DNA of 64,000 nucleotides from Pseudomonas syringae CC1557. GTDB lineage: Bacteria > Pseudomonadota > Gammaproteobacteria > Pseudomonadales > Pseudomonadaceae. Of the stretch, positions 39,264 through 60,013 are shown in pieces; within the stretch, counting starts at the first letter, position 1, and each line of letters starts with the position of its first letter. Both the position numbers and the translations under genes were made by a program. The DNA lies in the NCBI RefSeq assembly GCF_000452705.1, contig NZ_CP007014.1, forward strand, positions 1,302,001 through 1,366,000, written 5' to 3'. The notes under the pieces are model-generated. The model searched no databases and was not told the DNA's origin. It saw only the letters and a list, made by a program, of their open reading frames with translations.

Positions 39264-39264
39264 A

Positions 39265-42669: not shown

Positions 42670-43962
42670 TCAGAAAACTCCAATGACCATAGCGGTCAGG
42701 GTCATGATGACCGAGGCCGCAAACAGGAAAGGGATAGTGAAGCGCTGGTGGTCGGCCAGTTCGATCTTGCACAGGCCGACCAGCAGAAAGGTCGCGGGCG
42801 TCAACGGGCTGACCGGGAAGCCGGTGGTGTGCACACCCAGCAGCGACGCCTGCGCGACCTGTATCGGATCAACACCTAGCGCTCTGCCTACTTCGGCGAC
42901 CACGGGCATGATGCCGAAGTAAAAAGAATCCGGATCGAAAAGCAGGCTCAACGGCATTGAGAGGAAACCCACTACTACCGGGATCAGCTTCCCATGCCCG
43001 GCTGGAATCTGGCCCACGGCAACTTCTGCCATGGCCTTCAGCATCCCGGTGCCTTGCATGATTCCTGTGAACACTCCGGCAGCCAGCAAAATGCTGGCCA
43101 TGGTGAGGGCTGTTTTGGCGTGCGCGTCGATTCGTGCCCGTTGTGCGTCCACGTTGGGGTAGTTGAGGCACAAGGCACACACAGTACCGAGCATGAACAT
43201 CACTACTGGATCTACCACCCCCGCGATCATCACGCCCATCACCACCAGCGTCAGCAGCAGGTTGATCCAGAACAACCTCGGCTTGCGCAGTTCAAGCTCG
43301 GCCTCACTGAGCGAGCGCTGATGGGGCTTTACATCGAGATTGTTCGGGCCAAGGCCCAAGCGTCGCTCCTCGCGCCGCCCCAGAAAATAAGCGCAGGCAA
43401 AGACAAATATCAGTCCGACTATCTGCACCGGAATAAGCGGTTGAAAAAGATCTGACACGGGCACATGAAGAGCGGCGGAAGAGCGCAGTACCGGGCCGGT
43501 CCAAGGGAGAAAGTTGACACCCGCAGCCATCGCCGTGACGCAAGCCAGTATCCGTTTATCCATGCCAAGCCGCGTGTACAACGGCAGCATCGCGGGAATC
43601 GTCACAAGAAAGGTCACTGCACCGGAACCGTCCAGATGCACCAGCAACGCCAGCAGAGCGGTGCCCATGACGATACGGGTCGGCCGTGTGCCTACCCTTT
43701 TGAGGATGCGATCAATGATGGGATCGAGCATGCCAGCGTCTGTCATGATGCCGAAGAACAGGATGGCAAACACAAACATCCCCACTACAGGGGCGACGTT
43801 CTTGATACCTGTGATGATGAATCCGCTGGTTTGCAGACCAAAGCCACCCAGCAGCGCGGCGATGATCGGCAGGGCGATCAACGCAACCAACGGGGAAATG
43901 CGTTTGCTCATGATGCTGACGAGCATACAAAGAATGGTGATTACACCGAGCGTAGCGAGCAT
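42670..43962 (-). CDS. CitMHS-family citrate/carboxylate transporter
   Basis: A 430-residue inner-membrane protein with about twelve hydrophobic segments. The family resembles CitM/CitH: LVHLDGSGAVTFLVTIPAMLPLY, LPWTGPVLRSSAALHV, and SLLFDPDSFYFGIMPVV are typical of the citrate-metal:proton symporters. It probably imports the di- or tricarboxylate degraded by the AtuA-like proteins encoded immediately downstream (no gap between the genes). It is divergent from the LysR regulator, with about 130 bp for the shared control region. Confidence 0.9.
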   Translation of the reverse strand: MLATLGVITILCMLVSIMSKRISPLVALIALPIIAALLGGFGLQTSGFIITGIKNVAPVVGMFVFAILFFGIMTDAGMLDPIIDRILKRVGTRPTRIVMGTALLALLVHLDGSGAVTFLVTIPAMLPLYTRLGMDKRILACVTAMAAGVNFLPWTGPVLRSSAALHVPVSDLFQPLIPVQIVGLIFVFACAYFLGRREERRLGLGPNNLDVKPHQRSLSEAELELRKPRLFWINLLLTLVVMGVMIAGVVDPVVMFMLGTVCALCLNYPNVDAQRARIDAHAKTALTMASILLAAGVFTGIMQGTGMLKAMAEVAVGQIPAGHGKLIPVVVGFLSMPLSLLFDPDSFYFGIMPVVAEVGRALGVDPIQVAQASLLGVHTTGFPVSPLTPATFLLVGLCKIELADHQRFTIPFLFAASVIMTLTAMVIGVF

Positions 43963-44093
43963 GAGTGAATCCTCTTTGGCATCCCTGTTCGCGATGGCGA
44001 CGAGACACTCTGTTGTTGTTTTGCAAGAGTAATAGCAACGAAGCTATGCTCTGTGAATTGAAATATTCAGCGGGTCTCGTTCGGAAAAACAAA

Positions 44094-44987
44094 ATGAAGA
44101 ACTCCATTCAACACATCCGCGCCTTCTTGTCGGTGGCTCAGACGGGAAGCTTTTCCAAAGCGGCAGCTGCCCTGAACTTGTCGCCTTCGGCACTGACTGT
44201 ACAAATCCAGCAGCTGGAGGACTGGCTCGGTGTCGCATTGCTGGAGCGCAGCCCGCGTCACGTGTGCTTGACCGGTGCCGGCCAAAATGCACTTTTACCC
44301 ATGGAGAAGCTGCTGCTGGATCTGGACAATATTGTTAACGCTGCCCGAGACATCGCCGCCTCACGTCGCGGCGTAATCACCATCGCTGCGTTGCCATCGC
44401 TGTGTGCTGGAGTGCTGCCCGGCGTGCTGAAGAAATTTCGCGAGCGGTTTCCCGGAGTCGAGGTACGGTTGCGAGATGTCGTCGCGCAGCGGATCGATTC
44501 GCTCGTGATGGAGCGCGAGGTGGATTTTGGATTGGGAGTACAGGCACGGCCCACTCATGGACTGAAGTTCCAAGCCATATTGGAGGATCGGCTATGCCTG
44601 TTCACGCCTAAAGGTCACCCGCTCGCGATGCGTCAAGCAGTGAAGCTAAGCGAGCTCACCGATTTTCCAATGGTCCTGACAGGCAGGGACAGCAGCGTGC
44701 GCGATCTGGTCGAGCGCCTTTTTGCCGACGAGTGTTTGCCTTTGTCAGCAGGCCTGGAAGCCAATTACATGTCGACCGTGCTGGCGTTGGTCAGGCAGGG
44801 GCAGGGTATTACTCTCCTTCCCGAGTCGGCTGACGATGGGCGGGGAGACCTGAACAAGATAGCAGTCGATCATCCAGGTGTTTTGCGTCAAATCGGGCTT
44901 ATAACCCGCGCGGAGCAAACAATGGCTCCGCCCACCCTTGAGTTCATCCACTTGCTGGAGGATCTGCAGACTGCCCACGGATTGTGA
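44094..44987 (+). CDS. LysR-type regulator of the CitMHS/AtuA operon
   Basis: A 297-residue LysR family protein. The start at 44094 (MKNSIQHIRAFLSVAQTGSF) gives the canonical helix-turn-helix at the N-terminus; upstream in-frame starts back to 43965 would add an unusual 43-residue extension lying in the promoter region. The HTH is SFSKAAAALNLSPSALTVQ with IQQLEDWLGVALLER. It is divergent from the CitMHS-AtuA-small subunit operon and is the likely activator, responding to the transported substrate. Confidence 0.92.
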   Translation: MKNSIQHIRAFLSVAQTGSFSKAAAALNLSPSALTVQIQQLEDWLGVALLERSPRHVCLTGAGQNALLPMEKLLLDLDNIVNAARDIAASRRGVITIAALPSLCAGVLPGVLKKFRERFPGVEVRLRDVVAQRIDSLVMEREVDFGLGVQARPTHGLKFQAILEDRLCLFTPKGHPLAMRQAVKLSELTDFPMVLTGRDSSVRDLVERLFADECLPLSAGLEANYMSTVLALVRQGQGITLLPESADDGRGDLNKIAVDHPGVLRQIGLITRAEQTMAPPTLEFIHLLEDLQTAHGL

Positions 44988-45160
44988 TTGGTTTGTAGAG
45001 TTTTCTTTCGGTTTGAAGTGACTCAGCTTCGTATGACCTTAAAAAGCCCAAAGCCCTAAGTCATGAGGGCTCCAGGGCATTTTTTGCCAGACATGGCATG
45101 GAGGTCAATCAAAGCGGCCAGGCTTAAGATGACTCTTTTCGAGGGAATGATCACCTCTGC

Positions 45161-47281
45161 TCAAGGCCCTGCACGCACACCTTTCTCCTGTGCTTCCTTT
45201 ACAAGCCGCTCACGATCTTCGGGAAGCAGCATCCGCGCTTCAACCAGCGAGTCTGCAGCTTTACTCACAGCAGATACATAAGCCTCCTTCGTGGGGTAGC
45301 GTTCCTCCAGGGAAAGGCGAGGATCTCCGGCCACGATTCGCTCTTTCTTCGTCGCGGCAAACGGGAGGAAGCTGCCTTGGAAGTTACAAAAGCCGCCATC
45401 AAAAAACTCGGGCCGAAAGGTGTTCCAACCCGTGTAAGTCCCGATGGGAGCACCCAGATACACATCCCGAACGCCACCAATATCAATTCCGTCTGCATCC
45501 ACCTGAGGTACCAGGAGGCCGTAGCTACCAGTCCCCGATTTCGGCGGCTCGTTTGTAAGAATGCCAGAGCTGTCTTCGGGACGGAAATCAGGACCAAAAT
45601 CAAGCACCTGTAGACTATTCACAGCACCGGTGTAGCGGAGCGCGGGGCGCGAAACACCAGCATAATTGGTCGCGGGGATGAGCGGGAAACTCACCCTGTC
45701 CGCCGGCACGAGGGTGCCGTCCGCCACAGAAGGCTTTATCGAAGCTGGGGGCGTTGTCTCATCACGAACCCAGTCAACGAGATTGATGAACGCTGCGCGC
45801 ATTGTCCAGGTGTGTGGATTTGGATTTGATTGAACCTGGCAAAGCCCAAAGGGTGGGTTAGCCGGGAGTGGCAAAGACGGCGGTGCATGCTGCGTACTTG
45901 CCATAATAAAAGTGCGGACGTTTTCCGGTTCAGGTGCATCGCGCAAGCCGAGTGGATCGGTAAGGCCAAGCGACTGGCGTCCTTCCCAAAGCTCGAGGGC
46001 CGTTGCCATGTGGAATATCAGAGGGCAAGTATTGTTATCGTTGCAGCGATCCAGCAAACCCTGCGAGCGTCCAGTAACAGGATCGGTTTCCCGGCCATAG
46101 GTAAACGGAAAATCGTAAGCAGGGTAGTCATGATCGACCTGCTGGCCCCACGCCCGACCAGGTTGAGCAAATCGGATGTTGAGCGGCATCAGGCCGCCAC
46201 CAATATGTGGCATCGCACCATCGTAGACCCGGTGACCTTCCTCGCTGCGGTTGAAACCAAGCGCGATCATGCTGCGAATGAATCGCCCAGCTTGTGATGA
46301 GCCAGTGATAATCGACTTGACCTTAGGCCCATGCACTACGGGGTTGGGCACACCTGTATCGTCATGCTCAGCCTGTTGGAAAAAAGCACCAACATCCCGT
46401 GCGATAGCAAAACCAATACCCATTACCATCGGCTCCTTGGCCCGGTAAATCAGCTCGTAAAGCTTGCCGGGCTGAAAACCAGCGGGTAGGCATATCTGGG
46501 TTTCGCTCGGCGTATTGCAATCGCCAAAACTCCAGTCATTCACTGGAATTTCCTGCCTGGGCGCATTTGCCCGCGAACGTACCGTCAATGTCGGACGAAA
46601 GCCATTCGAGAGCACTTTGGTATTGTCGGTTTCAACCGATTTGTAGCTTGTGTGAGGCGGCGTGGAGGTGAACCAACCTGCAGACAGGTTAAGGCTGACG
46701 TTCGGTGAGAGCGTGGTCAACTCACTCCGCACTACACCTGTTACCGGCGACCCATCAGTATTTATTGCCGTCGGCAATTGCACCATCATGCGGTTGTCAC
46801 CCGGGGCAACATCTCCCTGCCAGGCAAAGGCGATCAGCGTCGTCCCCAGACGCTGCAGAAAACCGTCCCCAGCGACTTCGAAGTTGTTGAACGCTGCTGG
46901 ACCACCCCGCATATCAGCATTGAACAACAACATCGCGCGCTTAGAGCCTCGATTTGGCACGTCAAACAGAAGAATGTCATTCGATTTAGCCACATCAGCG
47001 GGACGCAGGATTGCAACATCAGTTGTGTATTCAACCATCCCACGACCGTTACGGGGTGCAAGTTCGATGTCTTGAATAATCTTGTTTTCAGAAGCGCCTG
47101 GGTCTAATTCACCATGAGCGCGCGCAAAGACGCGTTCGTAAGTTCCTGTATTCCCGAAGCTTTCGCCTCCGAAAGCGGGTTCGGTCCGCAGGATCTCCAA
47201 TTGTGTAATACGGGCTTGGGCGGGTGCTGCAACGATCATCATGGTGCTTACAAGCACTGCAGCATGAAATAGGCGATTCAT
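45161..47281 (-). CDS. Secreted alpha/beta hydrolase domain protein
   Basis: A 706-residue exported protein. The start at 47281 (MNRLFHAAVLVSTMMIVAAP, cleavage after AQA) opens a signal peptide; GGGGGTAAAG lies just before it. The body matches the large alpha/beta hydrolase domain family (Abhydrolase_10 type): FDVPNRGSKRAML early, FAWQGDVAPGDNRM, and the nucleophile motif IITGSSQAGRFIRSM, with HIGGG and STQHAPPS later. It may hydrolyse an ester outside the cytoplasm. It lies beside the CitMHS/AtuA module but on its own transcript, so a shared catabolic role is only a possibility. Base composition is somewhat lower in GC than the core genes. Confidence 0.85.
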   Translation of the reverse strand: MNRLFHAAVLVSTMMIVAAPAQARITQLEILRTEPAFGGESFGNTGTYERVFARAHGELDPGASENKIIQDIELAPRNGRGMVEYTTDVAILRPADVAKSNDILLFDVPNRGSKRAMLLFNADMRGGPAAFNNFEVAGDGFLQRLGTTLIAFAWQGDVAPGDNRMMVQLPTAINTDGSPVTGVVRSELTTLSPNVSLNLSAGWFTSTPPHTSYKSVETDNTKVLSNGFRPTLTVRSRANAPRQEIPVNDWSFGDCNTPSETQICLPAGFQPGKLYELIYRAKEPMVMGIGFAIARDVGAFFQQAEHDDTGVPNPVVHGPKVKSIITGSSQAGRFIRSMIALGFNRSEEGHRVYDGAMPHIGGGLMPLNIRFAQPGRAWGQQVDHDYPAYDFPFTYGRETDPVTGRSQGLLDRCNDNNTCPLIFHMATALELWEGRQSLGLTDPLGLRDAPEPENVRTFIMASTQHAPPSLPLPANPPFGLCQVQSNPNPHTWTMRAAFINLVDWVRDETTPPASIKPSVADGTLVPADRVSFPLIPATNYAGVSRPALRYTGAVNSLQVLDFGPDFRPEDSSGILTNEPPKSGTGSYGLLVPQVDADGIDIGGVRDVYLGAPIGTYTGWNTFRPEFFDGGFCNFQGSFLPFAATKKERIVAGDPRLSLEERYPTKEAYVSAVSKAADSLVEARMLLPEDRERLVKEAQEKGVRAGP

Positions 47282-47560
47282 CTTTACCCCCAAGTTGTCA
47301 TTTTTTTATGGATGGTTTTTGATGCTCTGATAGCAATGACTTGTACAGATCAAAGGACTTCAAGCATAGCCCGCAGTTAGCTCAGTTATTATGAATTCGT
47401 AAGCGTTCCGAGAGCACAGCTTGCCAGTTTCAGCATTCAGGAGGTCATGCCATGTGAGGAATGTACCTATGGCCTATTCCAGGATTACGCGCTGAGCCTG
47501 AATGTAGTGGTCAACTGATCCCGGACACGACCACGCCAGGCGTCTTAGAGGCTAAGGATT
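47282..47560. other. Promoter of the secreted hydrolase and possible insertion-sequence scar
   Basis: The first about 120 bp are AT-rich and presumably hold the hydrolase promoter. At 47499-47535 the segment AGTGGTCAACTGATCCCGG followed by ACACGACCA resembles the end of an insertion sequence. No intact gene is present. Confidence 0.4.
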
Positions 47561-47718
47561 TAGGTTCTGTACGAAAAGTCAGCGAGCGAAGGTCAGGCAA
47601 GGCAAAAACAGGCGAGGAACGGTCGGAGTCGCGGCCGACTTTACTGGAGTAAATGAGCATTCCGAGCCGGTTTTTAACGCAGCATGACCGAGCGCAGGCA
47701 CTTTACGTACAAAACCTA
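47561..47718. mobile_element. MITE-like element with 17-bp terminal inverted repeats
   Basis: The left end reads GGTTCTGTACGAAAAGT (from 47563) and the right end, reverse-complemented, GGTTTTGTACGTAAAGT (to 47716), with two mismatches in 17. TA flanks both sides. The interior of about 120 bp has no ORF. The ends suggest mobilisation by an IS5-like transposase encoded elsewhere. Confidence 0.75.
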
Positions 47719-47757
47719 GCCTGCCAATCTACTCGTTAAACCTTCGGAGACCCGCTA

Positions 47758-49191
47758 TTGAACACCCTCGCACGGACGCTGACCACCCTGCTGCTCACCT
47801 GCCTGCCACTGCTTGCCCATGCCAGCAATGCCGAGACCCTGATCGCCCGCCACGACTGGCATCAGGCGGCCCGTGCCGTCCTGCTTGAGGCCGGCCAGGA
47901 GAAAAATATCGATTCATCACTGCCGCTGGTCCAGGCCAGGGCCGGTTTTGTCGATGACGCCCTCAAGACCATCGCCGGTCTTTATGCTGGCTCGCAGCCC
48001 TATCGGCTGGTGGAAGTGGCAGAGCTGCCACAGGTAAGCGCGGCGCGCCGTGAAGCGTTGCTGGGTCAGGCGCTGGACATTGCCCGGCAACAGGCCGAGC
48101 GCGACAGCACCGCCAGCACCGGGGCCTTCATGTGGCTGGCACTGCACTACTGCGGCGCGGGCGACGAAACTCAGGCCCGTGCCTTGCTTGCTTTGGCGCT
48201 GGAGTATGCGCACAAGCTCGACAGTTACGACCGGATGATCTACGCGATGCAGCGCAGCCCGCAGCATACCCGCAGTTGGATGATCAGCCCGGTGACCCAG
48301 GCCCTTGCGCGCGAGCGGGAAAATGCCGCCTTCAACTGGCTCGGCCTGGCCGAGCTGGCCTTGAAAATGGGCGACAAGACCCAAGCTCTGGGTTTTATCG
48401 ACCAAGGGATCGAGGCCACCGGTCAACTGCGCGACTCGCGCAAAGGCTACGTCCTCAGCCAGCTCAACCTGCTGGCGCTCAAGGCCGGCAGAGCCTCGCT
48501 GCCAGAGCCCTTGACGCCCTATCTGAACATGACCCGCCTGGCTATCACTGGCGTCCCGGACCAAGCCTATGCGCTGCTCGCCGCCGCGCCCCAGGACGGC
48601 AATACCCATTACGGCGCCCGCCTGTGGCCAAAGCTCATCAAGGATGCCAGCGAGCGTAATGACCTGCCCACCGCGCGCTATTTAGCTGAACGCCCGATCA
48701 AGCAATCTGCGCTGGAACAGGCCAGCGCCTGGCAGCAGGTGGCTCAACTGCAGTGGCAAGCCCACCAAGACTTCAGCGCCAGCTACCGGCAGGCATTCCA
48801 GGCCCTGGAACCCGCCGCCGGCACGCCGCGCAGCCTTGAAGACATCAGCACCCTGGTCAAGCTTCTGGACCTGGCCCGGCAAGCGGGCCTGAAACAGCCC
48901 GAGCCAGCACTGCTGCCCCAAGCGGTGGCCATGATCGACCATCTGCCGGCCGACCGCCCCTCTGACCGGATCAAGGCACGGTTGCAGTTGCTGCCCTGGC
49001 TATGGCGCCAAGGGACAAGGGATCTGGCCACAACCCAGGCGCTGACGGCATACCGTGACCTGAGCGGTTACCGCGACTCTTCGGCCGCCACCCGCGCCGA
49101 GTTGCTGACCGAGATGGGGGTGGTGTTCAGTGAGGTAGCGGCGCTCTCGCCCGGCGTCAGGACACCAGCGCCCGCTCCCGCAAGGCCATGA
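47758..49191 (+). CDS. Periplasmic helical-repeat protein of unknown function
   Basis: A 477-residue protein starting with TTG at 47758 and a signal peptide (MNTLARTLTTLLLTCLPLLA, cleavage after HAS). The rest is almost entirely alpha-helical and alanine/leucine-rich, with TPR-like spacing (for example FNWLGLAELALKMGDKTQAL), suggesting a solenoid scaffold. No catalytic motif was seen. It is high in GC, unlike the following island, and is bracketed by two miniature inverted-repeat elements (47561-47718 and 49394-49517), so it may have arrived or been kept as a mobile fragment. CTTCGGAG lies about nine bases upstream of the TTG. Confidence 0.7.
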   Translation: MNTLARTLTTLLLTCLPLLAHASNAETLIARHDWHQAARAVLLEAGQEKNIDSSLPLVQARAGFVDDALKTIAGLYAGSQPYRLVEVAELPQVSAARREALLGQALDIARQQAERDSTASTGAFMWLALHYCGAGDETQARALLALALEYAHKLDSYDRMIYAMQRSPQHTRSWMISPVTQALARERENAAFNWLGLAELALKMGDKTQALGFIDQGIEATGQLRDSRKGYVLSQLNLLALKAGRASLPEPLTPYLNMTRLAITGVPDQAYALLAAAPQDGNTHYGARLWPKLIKDASERNDLPTARYLAERPIKQSALEQASAWQQVAQLQWQAHQDFSASYRQAFQALEPAAGTPRSLEDISTLVKLLDLARQAGLKQPEPALLPQAVAMIDHLPADRPSDRIKARLQLLPWLWRQGTRDLATTQALTAYRDLSGYRDSSAATRAELLTEMGVVFSEVAALSPGVRTPAPAPARP

Positions 49192-49410
49192 TGTCGCGCT
49201 CAGGCCCAGGCAAGGCTGCTCCGGGATGGCCAGGGTGACTTCGGAGTTGGCCGGCAGGTCCAGCGACGTCACCAGAAAACGGCCCGTGTCGTAGGGGAAA
49301 CCCTCGCCGCCCGCCCACATCTGCTTGGCCCCTTGGGCCACCAGCACGATGCTCGGCGGCACCAGGCATATCACCGGCGGTGCGACTTCGTCGGTAACCG
49401 TCCGGCCAAG
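49190..49410 (-). pseudogene. Remnant of an AraC-family regulator (N-terminal domain)
   Basis: On the minus strand the frame reads PPSIVLVAQGAKQMWAGGEG, then FPYDTGRFLVTSLDLPANSE and PEQPCLGLS, the pattern of the AraC_N (YqhC-like) cupin domain. There is no valid start, the frame breaks near 49200, and the DNA-binding domain is missing. It is cut on one side by the inverted-repeat element at 49394 and on the other by the end of the helical-repeat gene. Confidence 0.75.
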
Positions 49411-49517
49411 TCATTTACCCAACCCCGCAAAGACAAGACATGGTGTCCACTTAAATTTAGGTGGACACCATCGCCTCAAGCGACGGTGTCAGGAAGGTGT
49501 GTTGGCCGGACGGTTAC
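49394..49517. mobile_element. IS66-like miniature element with perfect 16-bp inverted repeats
   Basis: GTAACCGTCCGGCCAA (49394-49409) and its exact reverse complement TTGGCCGGACGGTTAC (49502-49517) bound 124 bp without an ORF. The ends resemble IS66-family termini (GTAAGCG-type). Inside lies a second strong inverted repeat, TGGTGTCCAC/GTGGACACCA (49441-49470). No 8-bp target duplication was found. Confidence 0.72.
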
Positions 49518-49681
49518 AGAGGTTATGCAGCCCGTTACGTCCCGCCAATACAATGCGGCGTAAATGCCTGGCCATCCTCCAACCTTGGTTTCGGGCAATA
49601 GATCGTCGATACCCTATCATCGCCGCATAACGTCTTAGGCAAATATTGCCTTAGCTAAACCTCTGCGAGTGGTACCCACTT
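49518..49681. other. Left border of the accessory island
   Basis: Non-coding as far as can be seen. A perfect small hairpin AGGCAA-ATA-TTGCCT (49637-49651) lies about 31 bp past the stop of the following minus-strand gene and may act as a weak terminator. Confidence 0.4.
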
Positions 49682-50668
49682 CTAGTTTGGTCCTTTAGCA
49701 ATCCTAACCAGCTGCCCTGCGCCTTCGTCTAGTAGCACTAGGTCAAGGTGATCAAACGACCAGACAAATTTTGACTTGGCTGGAATGTTACCTTCGCTGT
49801 AAAGCGTCTTAGCAAATTCAAAGTCCACCAGGCTCTTTTCGTAATGCTTTATCCTCCGGATATAATCGAAAGCCATGTTAACAATCGCCACTGGTGCACA
49901 GGATCCAGTCACCCCCATGCCAGCCATGCCACCGATATAGGTCTCACCTGGCAAACGTCCTTGAGAGAGTCTTTTCTCGTGTGCAGCCCATAGGCTGCGT
50001 CTCTCCAAGGTCATTTCTCCGTTGTCATCATGTTCAAATGCATCGTGAGTGAAGAGCCCAATGACCTCAAACTCTTCCCTGCTTACCAGCGCAAAGAGAA
50101 CATCGTCTGTGCGTTTATAGTGCCCTGCTGGTTCTTTTGCCAAGCCCAGATGGAAATGATGAAATCCCATAATATTCAGCAGAAAATCTTTGTCTGCCCA
50201 CAACCCCTTCGGGTGATTTCGGTCAGCGGGTGTAAACCCTTCAGATTTTGCAGACAGAGACAGATAATGGGTTAGATCGCCTCCTGATCTCACTGCATCG
50301 AGAAATGCTTCGATGTTTGGTCTGAGGGCTGCAGCTCTAGAGTCGAAGTTTAGGATGTCAGCTTGTTTGACGCGACGAGGCCTACTCCCAACCAGCCTTA
50401 CCTTCCAGTTGAGAAAAACAACCAGTAAATCAGTGAGATTCATTGCCTGAAGTGCCAGCAGGGTTGTTTTGTTATTAGGGAATCTGGGAATAGCCTCTAT
50501 CAAATCTTTCTTCAGTCTTCTGAGGCGCTTTGATTCAGTTTCTCTCTGATCCATCAGTTTTACATCCAGGCTAATTTTAAGAGATTTTTGGGACTCGTTG
50601 TTTATGGATGACGATATTCGATTATGCTTAGAAGGGCGATTCCTCTCCAAAGAGAATCTTAATCGCAT
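49682..50668 (-). CDS. Unknown protein with HxFHLG...H motif, third gene of the GHKL operon
   Basis: A 328-residue protein if the ATG at 50668 is used; this has AAGGA eight bases upstream and overlaps the preceding gene by 41 bp. An internal ATG at 50554 (290 residues) is the alternative. The N-terminal half is charged and helical; the C-terminal half carries GFHHFHLGLA, then RTDDVLFALVSREEFEVIGL and FTHDAFE, a spacing of conserved histidines and an arginine that suggests a metal site or a small nuclease/toxin-like fold. I do not recognise the family. It is the last gene of a three-gene operon with a PRTase-like protein and a GHKL ATPase, and would be the most likely effector or accessory of that system. 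Confidence 0.7.
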   Translation of the reverse strand: MRLRFSLERNRPSKHNRISSSINNESQKSLKISLDVKLMDQRETESKRLRRLKKDLIEAIPRFPNNKTTLLALQAMNLTDLLVVFLNWKVRLVGSRPRRVKQADILNFDSRAAALRPNIEAFLDAVRSGGDLTHYLSLSAKSEGFTPADRNHPKGLWADKDFLLNIMGFHHFHLGLAKEPAGHYKRTDDVLFALVSREEFEVIGLFTHDAFEHDDNGEMTLERRSLWAAHEKRLSQGRLPGETYIGGMAGMGVTGSCAPVAIVNMAFDYIRRIKHYEKSLVDFEFAKTLYSEGNIPAKSKFVWSFDHLDLVLLDEGAGQLVRIAKGPN

Positions 50669-52850
50669 CGGTGTGGTCCTTGAGAGCTATTTTGATATTG
50701 TTTCGAAGCTTCTCACCCACCTCTTTGTGAAGCCGGATTTTACCAATGGCTAGTGCAGTGATGAACTCCATGGAGGCATCACCCCGCTCAAACCCATGGC
50801 CCCGAACAACGCGCAGGATGATGTCGGCCATAGATGCGCTGTGAGTTTCATGGGCGCTGTAATCAAGCTCGGTGGGCAGCGCAGCTCTGAGAAACGCTCC
50901 TTGGATGATCCCGTCGTCGTAGCGAGAGAAGATCTCGGGAGAGAGCAGTACCTGTTGAAGCTCACCCGACTCCAATCGTTTAGATTGATCAATTTTGGCG
51001 CTTTCGCGGGCGTTCTGCAGAATCCACAGAATCGTCAGGAAGATATCAGTGCACGCGGCCACCGTGACATCGCTGTCCCCACTCACAAACGCGAAGCCTT
51101 TTGTCAGCTTCATTTGTCCAGGCTGATAGCTGCTCGGCCAGAATGCATCGTTTGAAAGTCCCTCTGTAGTCGATTTATCGAAAGCCTGGATGCGTGCTTT
51201 CATGACATCCGATACGTCTGCTTCTTCAAAAGTGAGCAAGCGGCTAAGTAGCTTATGTTCTTGGTGCCAGTGGTTGTTGCAAGCCAAGCTAGAGGCCGGG
51301 ATCTCGATGAAGGGTTTGAACACGTATTTTCGACTGCCTTTTGGCGGCTGCGTGAGGTTCGAAGCAAGCTCTGCCATCAATTCATACGAACGGCCTAAGA
51401 GAGCGCCTACAAGGTAAACCCGTGTGCCGGACTCTTGGGTAGACCTGAGGCGGCGACTGATGCTCAGGAGCAATGTGCCTCGTTCTGCAGCAGCGGCAAC
51501 GATGATCACCGACCCGTTGAATCTGGTCTTAGGATCGAAGGCTGAAGCGCTTACTACCTCACATTTAAGACCCTTGGCCTCAAGGAAGGCCAAGGCGTCC
51601 ATGGCCATCTTCTTACTGGCACCATCGTTGTCATGGATGATGAGCGACGTTGAGGCAGGAGACTCCTCCAAGAGCATTTTCTTGAACCACTTTTCGAAAT
51701 CTCCAGTACGGACAAGTTTGTCCTTGTCTACTTGGACAGTTCTGTAGCGTTCTCTTTCGGGAATTTGGCTGAAGCACGTGAACAAACCTTTGCCCATGAA
51801 CGAGAAGAACTTGGTTTGAAGCCCTTCTGGCAGATGCCCCATACCAATGTTCAGCACCCGGGTTTCGGTGTGCTGTGCAATAAATCGTTCGCCATGGATG
51901 CGAATAAGCTTACGACCGTCGGTTGACTCACTCTCGGTTACAGATTCGAAATCCTCAGGTTTCTCAATAGCATGGAGTACGGTGCACGAATCAGATTGTT
52001 TGATGAACGACAGAAAAGTTGCGACTCGGGTGGGTGGAGCGCCGTTGACCTTAACCCACTCCTTGGCGAGTCCACAGTTGGTGGATGCCGAGATCAGGCA
52101 TAGTGATGCGGCAGCATCGACCAGGCTACCGTCGTTCAAACCATCGTGTGAGTGAAATGACTTGATGCTGAAGATCGTTTGGTTGCCGAATTTCGTTTGG
52201 AACAGCTGGATTGAGAGTGCCACTGGCAGGAACGCCATCGTGTCCAGGTAAATTGTCTCAGGCTCACGCATGCCGTCGCCGGAGGCATCTTTGATCACTT
52301 TGAGGCAGCAGAACGCCAAGAAGTGTGAGTGCAGCATTTCAGTAAGCAGGTTCTCCGCGCGGATGAAATAGTTGGAAGCGCGTGAGGAGGGTTTAGAGAA
52401 CAAGAAGCCCGCCGGTGCTTTTGTCAACACAGCTGTACATTTGACGAGCTTCCGCATTCCAGCTTGGACAAAATTCTCGGTGGCTCGGGTGATGAGTTTG
52501 CCGATGCCTTTGTCGGCGCCGGCGACTTTTACGTACTTTGAGATTTCTCCGTGCTCGTTGAAAAAGGAGAATCCATAAGATGGTGTCCCGCCGTTGGAGC
52601 GTCGCTCCAGAGCAATCGCTACAGCAGACGACTTGTCAGCACACTGTTCCTTGATCCATGCTCGATGACAATCGGGCACTAAGAAAGTTACATGATCCGG
52701 TAGGATGTAGTCGTTTAGCCTATTTTGCAGGGCTTCGGTGATATGAGCATCTGTGATTCGTTCTGGCCCGATGAAAAAAACCACCACGTGCGCTGGTTCA
52801 GCGGCAGGGGAAGGCGTCAGGGTCACTTCAAAATCGAACAAGTCAGGCAT
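50628..52850 (-). CDS. Large protein with degenerate phosphoribosyltransferase-like regions
   Basis: A 740-residue cytosolic protein. Around residues 140-285 the order of segments resembles an orotate phosphoribosyltransferase: GFLFSKPSSRASNYFIRAEN in place of the usual sGr.SpYyf start, then TIYLDTMAFLPVALSIQLF, and LCLISASTNCGLAKEWVKVN where the PRPP loop (vDDvitTGgs) would be. The acidic pair of the loop is replaced, so catalysis is doubtful. A second segment, SVIIVAAAAERGTLLLSISR (about residues 450-490), looks similar. The C-terminal third is unrecognised. The stop of the GHKL gene is two bases from its start, and the third gene overlaps its end, so the three are translated together. The PRTase assignment is mine, by eye, and needs a profile search. 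Confidence 0.6.
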   Translation of the reverse strand: MPDLFDFEVTLTPSPAAEPAHVVVFFIGPERITDAHITEALQNRLNDYILPDHVTFLVPDCHRAWIKEQCADKSSAVAIALERRSNGGTPSYGFSFFNEHGEISKYVKVAGADKGIGKLITRATENFVQAGMRKLVKCTAVLTKAPAGFLFSKPSSRASNYFIRAENLLTEMLHSHFLAFCCLKVIKDASGDGMREPETIYLDTMAFLPVALSIQLFQTKFGNQTIFSIKSFHSHDGLNDGSLVDAAASLCLISASTNCGLAKEWVKVNGAPPTRVATFLSFIKQSDSCTVLHAIEKPEDFESVTESESTDGRKLIRIHGERFIAQHTETRVLNIGMGHLPEGLQTKFFSFMGKGLFTCFSQIPERERYRTVQVDKDKLVRTGDFEKWFKKMLLEESPASTSLIIHDNDGASKKMAMDALAFLEAKGLKCEVVSASAFDPKTRFNGSVIIVAAAAERGTLLLSISRRLRSTQESGTRVYLVGALLGRSYELMAELASNLTQPPKGSRKYVFKPFIEIPASSLACNNHWHQEHKLLSRLLTFEEADVSDVMKARIQAFDKSTTEGLSNDAFWPSSYQPGQMKLTKGFAFVSGDSDVTVAACTDIFLTILWILQNARESAKIDQSKRLESGELQQVLLSPEIFSRYDDGIIQGAFLRAALPTELDYSAHETHSASMADIILRVVRGHGFERGDASMEFITALAIGKIRLHKEVGEKLRNNIKIALKDHTDAIKILFGEESPF

Positions 52851-52851
52851 C

Positions 52852-54009
52852 TCAGTTCACCGGAATGCAGATGGTGAATATAGTGCCTTCAGCTGCAACC
52901 AGCTCACGGTCACCGCTCCAATTTTTGGGGTTAAACTCTACAACTTGGTCTTGGCCTTGAAATGCCTGATACAGGCAAACCCTTCCAGTGCGGAGACGTA
53001 CGTATGCCTTCAACTTGTTCAGCGCCTGGACTGCATTGTGCAGGCCCATACCAGAGGTCACGGAAGCTTTGGTCGTGACATGTTTTTTGAAGCATTCCAA
53101 GGTTGCCTCGAGCTCCACTGCCAAGGGGAGATCGTTGAGAGCCTCGACGGGAACGCCTTGTTTAGCCGAGAGCCAGCGTCGTGCTAGGCCTGGGCCGCTG
53201 TCGATGACTGAGATCTCAATGAATTCGAGATAATCCGCGTCCTTAAGCATGTTTCTTATCACGAACAGGGCAAACTGCGGCTCCTTGTCCGAAACCAAAT
53301 GGATGTCTTCCTTCTTGATCCTCCCGGATTTTACTGAAGTGCCTCTGAGACCCTTCTTGTACTTCACTCCATGCACATCCGTGACTGAGTGCTGATCTGC
53401 GTTGGCGATCAGTTCGGCAAGCACACTGCCCAGAGCAGGTAGACCGCCCTTATAAAGTGATCTCTTGTCCTGCTTGCTATGCATCAGCGCGGATGACATT
53501 TCCAAGAGGCTTGCGAATGAGGAGTGGGAGTGAATCTGAGGGTTCGTCGCTCCGTAGTAGAAGGGCTTGATGAACTCCATCTTCGCGAAATTAATGCTGA
53601 AGAGGTTAATGGCGGTAGGGCGCGCTCCTCGTTCGCTAGAGGTGTTACGAAGGTCGCCGTCGTACATTGCTTCGATCAAGGGCCTGATCACAGTAAGCGC
53701 TGCGCGCTTTTCTATCGTTTCATGCGCCTCGGTCTCGATGCGAGAAGACATAATTAAAGCCGCGAGACCAGCGGCAGTCTGGCCGAGTTGCATAATCCGA
53801 TCAGGAGCGCTATCAGCACCCGCATACAGGTGTAAGACGCTTTGCTCATGCGCGCGGGCCCAACTGATCACCAACTGGGCAAGCGCCGCATCAACCCCAA
53901 ATAAGCCGCCGTGACTCATGGTTTTTGGGAGACGCAGGGACGAATCCTCTTGGCAAAGCGGATATAGGTCTTCGATTTCGTATGTATTCAGATTCTTTGC
54001 GATTTTCAT
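52852..54009 (-). CDS. Stand-alone GHKL (HATPase) protein, first gene of the operon
   Basis: A 385-residue protein with a C-terminal GHKL ATP-binding fold: N-box ELIANADQHS (about 199-208), G1 box SVIDSGPGLARR (about 266-277), and G2 box GMGLHNAVQAL (about 319-329). No kinase dimerisation/phosphoacceptor, topoisomerase or MutL domain is evident; the N-terminal about 180 residues are unrecognised and helical. Such solitary GHKL ATPases usually act as ATP-gated switches. GAGG lies five bases before the ATG. It is the first gene of the minus-strand trio, separated by 292 bp from the ABC-3C operon upstream. Confidence 0.8.
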   Translation of the reverse strand: MKIAKNLNTYEIEDLYPLCQEDSSLRLPKTMSHGGLFGVDAALAQLVISWARAHEQSVLHLYAGADSAPDRIMQLGQTAAGLAALIMSSRIETEAHETIEKRAALTVIRPLIEAMYDGDLRNTSSERGARPTAINLFSINFAKMEFIKPFYYGATNPQIHSHSSFASLLEMSSALMHSKQDKRSLYKGGLPALGSVLAELIANADQHSVTDVHGVKYKKGLRGTSVKSGRIKKEDIHLVSDKEPQFALFVIRNMLKDADYLEFIEISVIDSGPGLARRWLSAKQGVPVEALNDLPLAVELEATLECFKKHVTTKASVTSGMGLHNAVQALNKLKAYVRLRTGRVCLYQAFQGQDQVVEFNPKNWSGDRELVAAEGTIFTICIPVN

Positions 54010-54301
54010 CAGCGCCTCAAACAGTCCGTCGTACGAGTGCTGAACCAGATTTCTGGATACACCCAGTCAAATCATATCGCCAGCCTCATTGGAGCGATAG
54101 GCGATTTAGGCTTCAGCCGGCCTTAATACTTGGGATTAGATCACGCCTGCCCCAGCGTAATCAGAATCTCCAGGACGCTGCTAGGAATGCCTGGATCCAG
54201 AAGGATGCGGCTCGCTCCCTTCAGGGCCGCTTTACACCTTCTCAATTCAAAATTTGCGCACCCGTGTAAACGAGCATGCTCTAACCAATGGTCTTCCGGC
54301 T
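54010..54301. promoter_or_regulatory. Gap between the two island operons
   Basis: 292 bp with no supported gene; it should contain the promoter of the GHKL operon. A 68-codon ORF crossing it on the minus strand (54347-54141) overlaps the end of the DUF3732 gene and has no ribosome site or recognisable content. Confidence 0.45.
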
Positions 54302-56287
54302 TCAACCCTCGAAGCGTGGCGGCACTAGTTTTTCTCCATCCCGCCACTCCTCGGCCAAGCTCACACCTTCAATGCCCTCCCAAACTTCGCTGCCTGCGTG
54401 GTCGAGGACAATGATTTGTAGGCGGCCTTTAGCTTTCTTGACTCCTCTGGCAAGTACACTAAACACCTTACGAACTGCATCGCGATCTTCATCGTCAAGG
54501 ATAGGTTCAATGTCACCGCCGTCGTCGACGGCTTGTTCTCTGCGTACCGCACTTTTAACGGGGAAGTAGACCTGGCTAGGCTGGTCGAAGATCAACAGAT
54601 GGGGAACCGAGTGATCCGGTTTCTTTAAGAAATAGAGTTGGAGTGCGAGCAGCATGGCGATGTGATACGCCAGCCAGTTGGCTCCGCTCCCTACCTCCCA
54701 AAGGAAATCGTCGCGCCCGTCATGTCTTACCTTGATTGCCAGGTCAGCGATGGACAGAGTGATCTTCGCGTCGGCCCACTCCGCATCAAGGTGGGGAGTG
54801 ATCAGCGCGCAGATCTTGCTGATCTCTTCTAGGATTTGCGTAGTTTTCAGTTTTACTGTCCCGTCCGAGACTTGGGGCTCCAACAACGTGATGCGCTCCT
54901 CAAGAGCTTTCACTCTCTCTGTGAGCGTCGAGTCTTTGAGTGCCTCCGTGTAGGTCTTGATGGACTGCTGCATGCTGCCCAGAAACTGGTCGATTTCGGT
55001 CATGCGCAATGAGTGTTTGGTGATAAGTTCGTCGCGGGTTTCGATGCCTTTAATCTCTGTCCTGATAGCAGTTAGCGTATCGCTGTCCTGACGGATGAGG
55101 TTTCGAATCCGAACGATTTCGCTCTCAACAGATGCCGACACTTTTGGTGTCGAACTGGCCACTTTCTCAATCTCCTTTAGGGCATTGCACAGTTCAGTGA
55201 GCTGGCTTGATGGAGTAAGAGTGGGAAACACCAGGGGATTCGTGTCCGAGCTATTATCAGCGAGTTCTTTGAGCCATGTAGACAGAGAGAGGCGCTGCCC
55301 GATTTTTTCAAGCGAAGAGGAATAATGTTTCGCCTCAGCTTTAATTTCCTTGAGATCTTCCAGCTTTTGCTTGGCGATGAAGATATTGTCACCAATTAGC
55401 GTCTCGCGCTCCCGCAGCACTGTGAGAACTTCTGATGATGACTCGGCAGCAGCGGGGGTAATGACAGCATCACGGGACGATTTTTGGGCGATTCCCTTCA
55501 ACTGCATAAGAAGATCTGACCAGTCACGCTGGGGCTGGACGGTTGCGTCCACTAATCCGTATTCCCGGGAGCGGTAAAACCAGACGTTCGCTTCAGCTTT
55601 CCACTGCTTCGACACCGTTTCAATCGCCGTTAGCTCGCCTTGCAGCGTTTTGAGCTGTTTCCTTAGCTCTTTAAGCTCCCAGACAACTACTAATAACTTT
55701 GAGTCGATTGCCCCAAGAATGAACGGGAAAATACTTTTCAGCTTTTCACGGTTACCATAGCTATCCGCCTTGTAAAAAAGGACGTCAGGGTTCGCTACGA
55801 TATTCTGGGGTTGGAAAGTAAATGCCATCAAATCGCGAAAGCTTGGTCGATTTTTGAAGCCGAACTCAGCCGGGTCATCGCCGAAGCCGAGGTTGGGCAA
55901 GCCTGACAATCGATTGAAAATTTCCTTCACGTTGTCACGATTGGTGTTTTTGCTGTCAATCGCTTCAGGAATTTCGATTGAATGCCCCTCAATGACGAAC
56001 ATGTCATCTGTGGAGCGTTGGTTACCAGGTTCAATTCTGGCGAGAAGCTTTTGACCCTCGTCAGTGTCAATGAGGATCCCGAACCACTTACAGGTCTTAC
56101 GGATGGTACCTACCGGGATGGCACAGCGCTCGGAGCCTAGGCAATAATCGATTATAGGGATGACCGCTGACTTGCCTGCTTTTGACGAGCCGCTGATGAT
56201 GTTGACCTTACCCGGCTCGAACTCAAGTTCTCTATAGGCTCCGCCGTTTTTTGGCCAAAGGATGAGCTTGCGAATTTGTAGTTTCAT
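54302..56287 (-). CDS. DUF3732 SMC-like ATPase of an ABC-three-component system
   Basis: A 661-residue ABC/SMC-type ATPase. The N-terminal lobe has Walker A GSSKAGKS (33-40) directly after FEPGKVNIIS, and FTFQPQNIVANPDVLFYK (Q-loop region). A long coiled-coil arm spans about 205-480. The C-terminal lobe has a signature-like EVGSGANWLAYH, Walker B HLLIFDQPSQVYFP (about 565; Asp-Gln instead of Asp-Glu), and the LQIIVLDHAG H-loop. This is the pattern of DUF3732 proteins, the ATPase component of ABC-3C conflict systems. The start overlaps the stop of the middle-component gene (TAATG). It is probably the sensor or motor that licenses the effector encoded two genes upstream. Confidence 0.9.
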   Translation of the reverse strand: MKLQIRKLILWPKNGGAYRELEFEPGKVNIISGSSKAGKSAVIPIIDYCLGSERCAIPVGTIRKTCKWFGILIDTDEGQKLLARIEPGNQRSTDDMFVIEGHSIEIPEAIDSKNTNRDNVKEIFNRLSGLPNLGFGDDPAEFGFKNRPSFRDLMAFTFQPQNIVANPDVLFYKADSYGNREKLKSIFPFILGAIDSKLLVVVWELKELRKQLKTLQGELTAIETVSKQWKAEANVWFYRSREYGLVDATVQPQRDWSDLLMQLKGIAQKSSRDAVITPAAAESSSEVLTVLRERETLIGDNIFIAKQKLEDLKEIKAEAKHYSSSLEKIGQRLSLSTWLKELADNSSDTNPLVFPTLTPSSQLTELCNALKEIEKVASSTPKVSASVESEIVRIRNLIRQDSDTLTAIRTEIKGIETRDELITKHSLRMTEIDQFLGSMQQSIKTYTEALKDSTLTERVKALEERITLLEPQVSDGTVKLKTTQILEEISKICALITPHLDAEWADAKITLSIADLAIKVRHDGRDDFLWEVGSGANWLAYHIAMLLALQLYFLKKPDHSVPHLLIFDQPSQVYFPVKSAVRREQAVDDGGDIEPILDDEDRDAVRKVFSVLARGVKKAKGRLQIIVLDHAGSEVWEGIEGVSLAEEWRDGEKLVPPRFEG

Positions 56288-56781
56288 TACAGCTTAATCC
56301 TTAGAATTGCTTGAACTTCCTGTATCGTCAGATTTTTGCACCATTGACCTAGCTTTTCAGAAGATCTAAGCATTTCTTTGATTTTTTCGTTTAGGTCGTT
56401 AGGTGCTTTGGATCTTAAGCTCGCTACCTCAGCGGTCGCTGTATTGAGAGAAATAAATCCACATTGGATAGCAATGGAAATCGAGGCTAAAGTCACCTCT
56501 TTGAGCTTTAATATTCGTCCTTGAATGCCGTATAGAATTTCCTGCTCCCCCTTAAACTTTCCTGCAAATACGCGCAACCCCGAGGAGGGGAAAGTCGACT
56601 TGGCCGCCTCTCGAAGTTCTTGGTGGTATAAAATTGGTAGCACTACGAAGAGCAAAGGCATGCAAGGAAGTGCGCTGTTACCTTTTGGGGCATAACCTTC
56701 TGCAAATCGCCAAACTAGCGAAGCACCTAAAGCAGGATTCTGCATCAAGTAAATTTCGTCGAGGTCTTGATTAGGCCGCAT
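56287..56781 (-). CDS. ABC-3C system middle component
   Basis: A 164-residue protein between the effector and the ATPase. The sequence follows the middle-component pattern as I know it: YLMQNPALGASLVWRFAEGY near the start, LPCMPLLFVVLPILYHQELR, a central GKFKGEQEILYGIQGRILKL, and a C-terminal SEKLGQWCKNLT helix. These small helical proteins bridge the ATPase and the CTD/effector. It starts 40 bp after the effector gene ends and overlaps the ATPase start by one base. No enzymatic residues are visible. Confidence 0.88.
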   Translation of the reverse strand: MRPNQDLDEIYLMQNPALGASLVWRFAEGYAPKGNSALPCMPLLFVVLPILYHQELREAAKSTFPSSGLRVFAGKFKGEQEILYGIQGRILKLKEVTLASISIAIQCGFISLNTATAEVASLRSKAPNDLNEKIKEMLRSSEKLGQWCKNLTIQEVQAILRIKL

Positions 56782-56821
56782 CCTTGAGCTCCATCTTGTT
56801 TTCCTTTGTCCGATTTTCGTG

Positions 56822-57994
56822 TTACGAGATACTATTAAGCTTCTTTTCTAGCAGTTCTTTGTATTTGGGGTGCCAGCCAATAAGCTGCTTGTCAGCTAAG
56901 TAATGAAAGGTGCCCCTGGGAAAGTAGTCTGGTGCGCTCTTGCCATTTATCGGAGGGTTGAGCGCGTGGCACCTCAAGAATAAGAACTCGCCTTTTTCCA
57001 CATGGGTAAGCTTTGATGTGGAACCCTTTATATCTAAGTAGTTGCTTCGCCAAAGCTTTTTCAGGTCGTCTACATAATTTTCAAACTGCGATTCGACAAT
57101 GAATCCGACCTCTGCCCAGCGAGTTTTGCCAGTTTTGGATCGCATGAAATCCGCCATGGCCCTTAGCTTTTCTCTCTGGCCTTGTTCGATCAGTTCAAGC
57201 TGATACATCATTACAGGGTGCTTACTGATGTTGGCTTCGACCTCCAAGTGCTCGGGAGTAGGGATAGTATAGGTAAGTAGGTATTCGTAGGAGAATTTCG
57301 AGCAATAGGTAGACAGCCAGTCAGCGAATAAATTTTTTTCCAGGGCTGCATGTTTTCGTGCGCCAATCAGTTCATCTGAACGTAATTTTACCCAGCCTAT
57401 GACAGTGCAGCAGACCTCGTCTAAAGATATATCGGCAACAGTATTTCGCAGTATGTCTTTAATTGGCTTTATTGGGTCACTGTCTCCGCAGTCATAGCTA
57501 AATCTGACAATTAATTGATGTAGTTTATGAGGGTCGTAGTTTAAGAATTTTTTTAAATATTTTTCGCAACCGGTTGGTTTTTCTTTCTTGACACGTTTTT
57601 TGATTTTCTCGACGGCTTCACGAGCATACTCAATCGAGTGCGCGAATTTTAGAAGATCTGCGATATCACCCTGCTTCTGCTGTACCACGTACAAGTGAAA
57701 CCGGGTATGAGCTAGGTCAATGTGGCCGGCCTCAATTGTATCGATCCAGTTGGCGAAGGTTTTCCAGAGGTCGATTGACCAATCTGATATGGGGTTAGTT
57801 ACCAGTCCGCTTTTAGACTGCTCGACTAAGACCTCGCCGTCGGGCTGAACGACATCAGTGTCATCTAAAATCTCAAGGGCGACGTGTGAGCCTGCAGGTG
57901 CTAGCAGCAGATGAAGGCATTGTCTAGTCGGTTGGATCGAAAATCCGAAATACTGCCCAGGTACTGAGGATTTGATCAATGGCTGGGTTTGCAT
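56822..57994 (-). CDS. ABC-3C effector/CTD protein with nuclease-like N-terminus
   Basis: A 390-residue protein, the first gene of the ABC-3C operon. The N-terminus has the restriction-endonuclease-like pattern of DUF4297-type effectors: Glu41 and Asp44-Asp45 in VALEILDDTDV, then Gln59-x-Lys61 in VLVEQSKS, followed by ISDWSIDLWKTFANWID. The middle and C-terminal parts (CCTVIGWVKLRSDELIGARK and WAEVGFIVESQFENYVDDLK, with FLRCHALNPP) match ABC-3C C-terminal domain proteins. It probably cleaves DNA when the DUF3732 ATPase signals invasion. The coding sequence is conspicuously AT-rich compared with the flanks, a sign of recent transfer. The ribosome site is poorly placed, so the start may be slightly different. 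Confidence 0.85.
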   Translation of the reverse strand: MQTQPLIKSSVPGQYFGFSIQPTRQCLHLLLAPAGSHVALEILDDTDVVQPDGEVLVEQSKSGLVTNPISDWSIDLWKTFANWIDTIEAGHIDLAHTRFHLYVVQQKQGDIADLLKFAHSIEYAREAVEKIKKRVKKEKPTGCEKYLKKFLNYDPHKLHQLIVRFSYDCGDSDPIKPIKDILRNTVADISLDEVCCTVIGWVKLRSDELIGARKHAALEKNLFADWLSTYCSKFSYEYLLTYTIPTPEHLEVEANISKHPVMMYQLELIEQGQREKLRAMADFMRSKTGKTRWAEVGFIVESQFENYVDDLKKLWRSNYLDIKGSTSKLTHVEKGEFLFLRCHALNPPINGKSAPDYFPRGTFHYLADKQLIGWHPKYKELLEKKLNSIS

Positions 57995-58708
57995 GCCTCT
58001 TTGCTATTCCTTTGCGAGTCGCGGCTTGTCCAAGGAGCTATGTAGCCCAATGAGAGTGCTGTCAGCGCTAAGGATGATATCAGATTGCTGCCTTGGTGTG
58101 GTGAGGGCGTACATGGGGTCCTGCCCTGCTACATCGGCGATTAGCTATCTTCGTCGGTCAGCTTCCAAGCGCGCCCTAACTGGACTTATAAATGAGAGTG
58201 ATAATTTGGTCCGACCCGCTTTTTTGGTCGGATAAGCAATGTTATTTACAATCCATTGTGTAAAAAATTAGGATTCAGGAGGTTCGTTCTATCACTCGTT
58301 CAAGGAATGCGTGTGAGAGTGGCTGGAAACGAGATTGTAGGTGTTAATGTAATATGTGCAGCCTTCGCTGGACGAAAGGATCGTACACGCTTTTGGTTAT
58401 GAATTATTAACGATTGATATACATGTACCGATAGTTATCTGAATAATTTATGATCTTTGATGCATGCCGGGGCACTCACATTATCTCTGTCTTTGGTGGC
58501 CAAGCTGTGGAAAATGGCATACAGCGGTCTTGTGGGTAAGTGGGTTCCTACAGAGCGTTTAAGCTGTATGGGCTTATCCACAGACAGCGAGAGTAATATT
58601 GAAAATACCCGCATCCCCTTTGTATAAGCGGAGGTTTCAGGTTCGGCTGGCTTTGAGCCATTCGCTAACACTACGGCGCGTCTCCTGCCTTGCCCAAGCC
58701 TTAACTGT
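57995..58708. other. AT-rich non-coding right border of the island
   Basis: 714 bp with no supported gene. The first part must hold the ABC-3C promoter on the minus strand. A hairpin TCCGACC/GGTCGGA with a T-rich loop is at 58210-58232 and a small palindrome ACAATCCATTGT at 58248-58259. The last about 270 bp can be read as an out-of-frame C-terminal extension of the channel gene on the minus strand. No tRNA or attachment-site repeat was found. Confidence 0.5.
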
Positions 58709-60013
58709 CTAAAGTATGTGGCGCCCCTTTTTGTGCGGATAAAGTGCCAACCGACCCCCCCCCCCCCCCCGCAACCCCACCCGCATATCCGCCCCACTAG
58801 GCTGCTGATACAAACTCAACCCAAACTCCGGCATCACCGTAATCAGATAATCGAAAATATCCCCCTGTATCCGCTCGTAATCCACCCACACCGTCGTGCG
58901 GGTGAAGCAGTAGATTTCCAGCGGAATGCCTTGCGAGGTGGGTTCGAGCTGGCGGACCATGCAGGTCATGTTTGGGTTGATGTCGACGTGGCTCTTCACA
59001 TACGCCAGGGCGTAGGCGCGAAAGGTGCCGATGTTGGTCATGCGCCGACGGTTGGCGGACATTTGTGCGACGTTGCCTTGCGCTTCGTTCCACGCGCGGA
59101 GTTCGGCCTGCTTGCGGCCGATGTAGTCGGTGAGTAAATGGATTTGCATGAGTTGCTGCTCTTCATCGTCGCGCACGAAGCGCACGCCGCTGGCGTCGAT
59201 GAACAGGCTGCGTTTGATGCGTCGTCCGCCTGATTGCTGCATGCCGCGCCAGTTGCGGAAGGACTCGGACATCAGGCGCCAGGTCGGGATGGAGACGATG
59301 GTTTTGTCGAAATTCTGCACCTTGACGGTGTGCAGGGTGATGTCCACCACGTCGCCATCGGCGCCCACCTGCGGCATTTCGATCCAGTCGCCGACGCGCA
59401 GCATGTCGTTGCTGGTCAACTGCACGCTGGCGACAAACGACAGCAGGGTGTCCTTGTAGACCAACAGGATGACCGCCGACATGGCACCGAGGCCGGACAG
59501 CAGCAACAGCGGCGAGCGGTCGATCAGTGTGGCGACGATGATGATCCCGGCGAACACATACAGGATCATCTTCGACAGTTGCACGTAGCCTTTGATAGAG
59601 CGGGTGCGGGCGTGTTCGGTGCGGGCGTAGATGTCCAGCAGGGCGTTGAGCAGCGCGCCGATGGCCAGGGTCATGAACAGGATGGTGAAGGCCATGGCGA
59701 TATTGCCGATCACGTTCCTGCCCGCAGTACTCAGGCCGGGTACCAGCGTGAGGCCGAACTGGATGACCAGCGAAGGCACCATCTGCGCCAGTCGGTGGAA
59801 AACCTTGTTATGGCGGAAATCGTTGACCCAGTGCAGGGAAGGCTGACGGCCCAGCATCCTGACCGCGTGCAGAACCAGAAAGCGCGCCACACGGCCGAGT
59901 ACCAGCGCGGTGGTCAGCAGCAGGATCAGGGCCAGCCCGGTGCGTACCCACGGATGCTGGTCGAGCATGTCCCAGAGTTCCTGAGCGCGAAGCCAAAGCG
60001 ATTGAATATCCAT
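58709..60013 (-). CDS. Mechanosensitive ion channel, MscS family (YbdG-like)
   Basis: A 434-residue inner-membrane protein with about five hydrophobic helices, then the MscS pore and beta domain: LSGLGAMSAVILLVYKDTLL, SNDMLRVGDWIEMPQVGADG, and VVDITLHTVKVQNFDKTIVS. The long cytosolic domain and length fit YbdG-type channels, which protect against osmotic stress. The last codons run through a 16-base G tract (58755-58770 on this strand) encoding a Gly run, then RLALYPHKKGRHIL and stop. Change of the tract length by one base would swap this tail for one of about 110 or about 18 residues. The gene follows the AT-rich island border. Confidence 0.9.
   Translation of the reverse strand: MDIQSLWLRAQELWDMLDQHPWVRTGLALILLLTTALVLGRVARFLVLHAVRMLGRQPSLHWVNDFRHNKVFHRLAQMVPSLVIQFGLTLVPGLSTAGRNVIGNIAMAFTILFMTLAIGALLNALLDIYARTEHARTRSIKGYVQLSKMILYVFAGIIIVATLIDRSPLLLLSGLGAMSAVILLVYKDTLLSFVASVQLTSNDMLRVGDWIEMPQVGADGDVVDITLHTVKVQNFDKTIVSIPTWRLMSESFRNWRGMQQSGGRRIKRSLFIDASGVRFVRDDEEQQLMQIHLLTDYIGRKQAELRAWNEAQGNVAQMSANRRRMTNIGTFRAYALAYVKSHVDINPNMTCMVRQLEPTSQGIPLEIYCFTRTTVWVDYERIQGDIFDYLITVMPEFGLSLYQQPSGADMRVGLRGGGGGRLALYPHKKGRHIL
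58755..58770. repeat. 16-base poly-C homopolymer inside the channel gene
   Basis: Sixteen uninterrupted Cs on the plus strand (Gs in the coding strand) within the last codons of the MscS-family gene. Tracts of this length slip during replication and are also prone to sequencing error. Confidence 0.9.

Follow-up and report, generated by a model that had tools for sequence, protein, structure and literature searches.

A GHKL ATPase and a PRTase-like protein encoded as a gene pair matching the PADLOC candidate PDC-M65 in a variable region of Pseudomonas syringae CC1557

The 64,000-nucleotide stretch of the Pseudomonas syringae CC1557 genome analysed here (the window) carries two adjoining minus-strand genes, A and B, which gene order and sequence comparison across genomes identify as an obligate pair. 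We have good confidence in calling these two genes an obligate defence module. Our reading, held with moderate confidence, is that they make up a two-gene anti-phage module which represents PADLOC's candidate PDC-M65 and is carried by a variable defence region, with the neighbouring gene C and a Lamassu operon independent of it. An original prediction, made on this DNA alone, had joined A, B and C in one undescribed system; a trio in that sense does not exist. The A-B pair is ordinary in being catalogued and interesting in its anatomy. What is new here concerns B, with its clear and its probable PRTase-like domain, neither of which has the acidic pair of the PRPP loop, and a highly conserved helical C-terminus after them.

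Locus layout and composition

Open frames lie exactly where three minus-strand genes had been predicted: A (52852–54009, 385 aa, a GHKL ATPase matching PDC-M65A), B (50628–52850, 740 aa, matching PDC-M65B) and C, whose longest frame runs over 49682–50668 (328 aa) and which is a PD-T4-7-like neighbour outside the A-B unit. The junction between A and B, given in the prediction as 2 bp, is a single base (52851). The 41-bp overlap between B and C stands for the longest C frame, which starts at 50668 with AAGGA eight bases upstream of its ATG, and is abolished if C starts at the ATG at 50554. Of the two, 50668 is preceded by the better ribosome-binding site, and 50554 fits most of the listed homologs (about 290 aa). 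Promoter and terminator scans of the locus gave no excess over shuffles.

The ABC-3C operon expected beside these genes is found at 54302–57994 on the minus strand, where PADLOC matches identify LmuB (54302–56287, E 6.5e-123), LmuC (56287–56781, E 8.9e-14) and LmuA (56822–57994, E 2.5e-40), and Pfam matches are to DUF3732, MC3 and CTD7; we treat this Lamassu/ABC-3C operon as an independent neighbour. Together with C, B and A it lies in a region delimited by gap comparison with congeneric regions (39235–58770, no strand assigned). Since the flanking genes at 38.35–39.23 kb and 58.77–60.0 kb are only 0.06–2.0 kb apart in all seven congeneric regions read, out of 29 genomes searched, the interval of 39.2–58.8 kb is a variable region. 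The DNA is AT-richer, as predicted: 2-kb steps starting at 49–57 kb have 46–53% GC, and the rest of the window 54–62%. The left half of the variable region (about 19.5 kb in all) is near the average in GC, so the whole may represent more than one insertion event. The genome measures 5.8 Mb in two contigs, and protein searches place its close relatives in Pseudomonas. Elsewhere in the window, the product of 33285–38117 is 1610 aa long and has GGxGxD-like stretches that recur, to the eye a secreted protein of the RTX type.

Pairing, distribution and defence context

An alignment of 18 B sequences was used for a profile scan of genome contigs, in which 147 stretches encoded a B relative; the best 80 of the 147 were kept and led to 79 loci. 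With the window (L001), a relative (L002) and a viral contig (L084) added, and L039, a fragment without a B call, dropped, the set comprises 81 B loci, or 80 distinct places, since L002 coincides with L013. In 77 of the 81, A is the gene directly upstream of B and shares its strand, and in the remaining four (L033, L046, L049 and L054) B starts 2–310 bases from the end of a contig, which is the ground on which the two genes are called an obligate pair. Of the 77 loci, 22 have a spacing of −4 and 15 one of +1, and 68 fall within −20 to +40; larger overlaps stem from the choice of the longest frame. Pairwise identities of A and of B are closely correlated (r = 0.93 over 72 loci; highest of 1000 permutations, 0.09), which at the level of sequence comparison shows joint inheritance of A and B and is not evidence of contact.

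According to record titles, the hosts of the pair include alpha-, beta- and gammaproteobacteria, Flavobacteria, Planctomyces, Verrucomicrobiales, Acidobacteria and Obscuribacterales, and B occurs on 11 of 72,556 plasmid records. Carriage is patchy in Pseudomonas, where 18 of 298 genomes have B and 15 have A at E ≤ 1e-12, all 15 being also B-positive. The two matches are at most 10 bases apart in 13 of these 15 and 0.2–0.4 kb apart in G215 and G251, where they are partial. Matches to B are also partial in the B-only genomes G096, G162 and G166, and A is broken into two frames in L010 and L034; such incomplete or broken genes, in G101 as well as in these five, suggest decay. A second, distant clade of B (L038, L067, L069 and L071; 27–28% identity) is also present in Pseudomonas, which suggests separate acquisition.

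The surroundings of the pair are rich in defence families. The 117 proteins adjoining it in other loci (L001 and L002 left out) matched 318 PADLOC families at E ≤ 1e-10 against 3 for a control of 117 frames drawn from 20 stretches of 8 kb chosen arbitrarily in genomes of the same order, a rough comparison, not taxon-matched, in which tallies count redundant models and not proteins. Ten flanking proteins were taken from recurrent clusters and from genes close by. PADLOC gave a name to eight of them (the methyltransferase, specificity and restriction subunits of type I systems, GajA, two GajB proteins, HamB and QatA) and had no match for the other two. Neighbours of the pair include proteins of type I restriction, Gabija, Hachiman and Qat systems, and on the P. 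aeruginosa plasmid pBJ86 the Qat genes come after it. In a P. marginalis locus (L005, 1814–5447), three genes near the pair are ABC-3C-like, a label given by resemblance, with a weak LmuB match. Gene order, distribution and neighbourhood support the view that A-B is a conserved, mobile, defence-island-associated pair. That part of the system logic in the original prediction is retained, and the membership of C is not.

Anatomy and catalogue status of A and B

The GHKL superfamily boxes reported for A are intact, and conserved throughout an alignment of 72 sequences. In the N box, E199-x-x-x-N203 (53401–53415), N203 is invariant and E199 is present in at least 90%, while the G1 box, D270-x-G272-x-G274 (53188–53202), and the G2 box, G320-x-G322 (53044–53052), are invariant; all three are encoded on the minus strand. 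The AlphaFold2 model of A (pLDDT 91.0, pTM 0.92) predicts an ATPase domain at residues ~130–385, preceded by a helical N-terminal region (1–130). HATPase_c of Pfam was matched by 22 of the 72 family members at E ≤ 0.1 (best 4.8e-5) and not by the window protein itself at E ≤ 1. With the model as query, Foldseek returned nothing at E ≤ 1e-3, its weaker rows mixing histidine kinases with GyrB/ParE; VIA-align placed SpoIIAB and CckA in a tie for first, with protein kinases among the top. Neither search listed a fold for residues 1–130, a part that they barely covered. A glutamate at −4 from the N-box asparagine is common to ATPases and Ser kinases, and E199 could be the catalytic base of a SpoIIAB-/BCKDK-like protein kinase or of an ATPase.

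The original prediction of a GHKL ATPase with a PRTase-like partner holds good for B as well, as its second domain (residues 342–529; 51264–51827, minus strand) has the type I PRTase fold. The first domain (140–315; 51906–52433, minus strand) is probably PRTase-like, to judge from the order of strands and helices in the AlphaFold2 model (pLDDT 88.5, pTM 0.68) and from profile comparison. Aligned with each other, the profiles of domains 1 and 2 scored 26.2, and 100 column shuffles scored at most 18.7; the hhalign probability was only 19%, and segment 1–180 scored 20.3 in the same comparison, likewise above the shuffles. The acidic pair in the PRPP loop is a standard motif of ordinary PRTases, and it is absent from both loop positions of B throughout the family (75 sequences). 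At the first, ISASTNCG (253–260; 52071–52094, minus strand), part of the degenerate loop ISASTNCGLA noticed in the window, all 75 members have S254-A255. At the second, VAAAAERGT (451–459; 51474–51500, minus strand), position 452 is A, G, S, V or T in 75 of 75 and never acidic, and no acidic residue is among the letters listed for position 453. Profiles of housekeeping PRTases gave a clear match to neither domain of B, in a comparison whose reference set came from a motif rule that yielded a sequence in 15 of 30 loci, at least 3 of the 15 being non-PRTase by motif. The C-terminal region (531–740; 50631–51260, minus strand) consists of helices in the model. Residues R615, R643, D646, G647, Q650, E661 and E695 within it are invariant in 75 of 75, and neither Foldseek nor VIA-align, which barely covered this part, listed a fold for it.

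Neither Pfam nor NCBIfam assigned any of the three window proteins to a usable family, and PDB sequence searches with them gave nothing convincing (best E 0.055 with single queries and 0.015 with profiles). PADLOC models were far more informative. A matches PDC-M65A at E 3.1e-24 (residues 2–350, profile 5–347 of 398), as do all 72 of its relatives, and B matches PDC-M65B at E 6.8e-77 (best stretch 383–722, profile 396–743 of 763). With the same models and the same adjacent gene order, the pair is, by sequence, already catalogued as PDC-M65, itself a database candidate only. The system can therefore not be called undescribed as far as models go, those of A and B being joined by a PD-T4-7 match for C; the term still applies in that no paper naming or describing PDC-M65 was found in a search of 5.39 million openly available journal papers.

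According to the accessible parts of the sources, PADLOC candidates of this kind are mostly without validation (PMC12988326); the sister candidate PDC-M63AB and PDC-S04 had no defence activity in one host, and deletion of PDC-M63AB in its own host showed no defence (PMC12409345). The nearest parallels are drawn by description. The DprA-PRTase defence pair (PMC9122126) and type III-A retrons (PMC12548924) likewise combine a sensor with a PRTase-like protein, proposed to be the effector, and the excerpts available describe no GHKL ATPase in them, unlike A-B. VcSduA, a Shedu protein with a GHKL domain (PMC12137116), couples such an ATPase to defence as A-B may do; there the ATPase and a DUF4263 nuclease are parts of a single protein. 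The domains of GrwAB are DUF262/DUF1524. A PRTase-like partner is not described for either in the text at hand, and both were rejected as the identity of A-B on account of these other domains. In the figure legends of DefensePredictor, also available in part, a PRTase belongs to a system that was validated and a HATPase to a prediction that was not, and the relation of either to the A-B family is not stated (PMC13092281). The combination of a GHKL ATPase with a PRTase fold without the acidic pair was not met in the defence literature searched.

Alternative readings and implications

C carries the predicted conserved His motif, as HHFHLG (50144–50161, minus strand), of which HHFHL is invariant in 75 C-family sequences. 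All 75 match the PADLOC model of PD-T4-7, a single-gene defence protein, partially. The match of the window protein (E about 2e-11 to 3e-11) covers profile positions 34–164 of 337 only, and its C-terminal part is divergent or unrelated. PD-T4-7 itself is counted among toxin-like abortive systems in the accessible part of one study (PMC9519451). Sequence matches and gene neighbourhoods identify C as a PD-T4-7-like neighbour, separate from the A-B unit. The original view that A, B and C act together, with C as effector, draws on the position of C as the next gene downstream of B, on the same strand and with a possibly coupled start. A profile of C nevertheless found it beside the pair in the window only (1 of 81 loci), and 77 of the 81 have room for it, with at least 1.2 kb downstream of B; it also found C in L082 and L083, two viral contigs without A or B. 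In Pseudomonas, C occurs in 4 of 298 genomes, and in 5 of 398 in a wider set (three weakly). The window genome is the sole C-positive one that is also on the A/B list; G225, where C is at a contig end, is absent from the B-positive genomes. The 19-kb surroundings of C hold neither A nor B in three other Pseudomonas genomes (G081, G179 and G416), in two viral contigs or on a Vibrio plasmid. One counter-case is kept, Pseudomonas sp. CFBP 8771, in which a B relative (P0017, IFT80_21230) and a C relative (P0109, IFT80_21245), with locus tags 15 apart, share a contig of 21,655 bases. The trio was rejected on co-occurrence, and joint action of the three genes is very improbable.

The pair might instead be a regulatory or metabolic one (for example in nucleotide sensing) that is merely sited in variable regions. 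PRTase-like and SpoIIAB-like folds are frequent in metabolism and regulation, and B had no match in 50,697 phage records; it is carried by one viral contig, and the link to phages is thin. Patchy carriage, the decayed copies in G096, G101, G162 and G166, and neighbours rich in defence families speak against such a role, which we consider unlikely. A toxin-antitoxin-like switch would explain the obligate pairing, the leading position of A and the near-fused spacing. B alone would be toxic and A would restrain it by binding or phosphorylation, until shut-off of A by a phage frees B; the effector role proposed for PRTase proteins in type III-A retrons and the DprA-PRTase pair is in keeping with this (PMC12548924, PMC9122126; both available in part). 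A is, however, conserved and large like an enzyme, not a small antitoxin, and B is without the acidic PRPP pair that ordinary PRTases need; we rate this switch as rather unlikely.

Within the preferred reading of A-B as an anti-phage module, we tentatively propose a mechanism in which A would be an ATP-driven regulator of B. The PRTase-like domains of B would bind a nucleotide or phosphosugar and not carry out PRPP transfer of the ordinary kind; the invariant residues of its C-terminal region may form an active site or a contact with A. On infection, the ATP cycle of A would release or activate B, and phage growth would be stopped, perhaps at the cell's cost. A bolder version, which we think quite unlikely, makes PDC-M65 a mechanistically new class: A, as a SpoIIAB/BCKDK-like kinase, would switch B, perhaps by phosphorylating one of its invariant serines (S234, S254). 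B would be a double pseudo-PRTase that senses a nucleotide signal with its dead PRPP sites and has a new effector as its C-terminus.

The analysis replaces a vague trio with a testable two-gene unit that spans several phyla, and C merits separate treatment as a relative of PD-T4-7. If the pair protects against phage, it would combine ATP switching by a GHKL protein with a PRTase fold that lacks the acidic PRPP pair.
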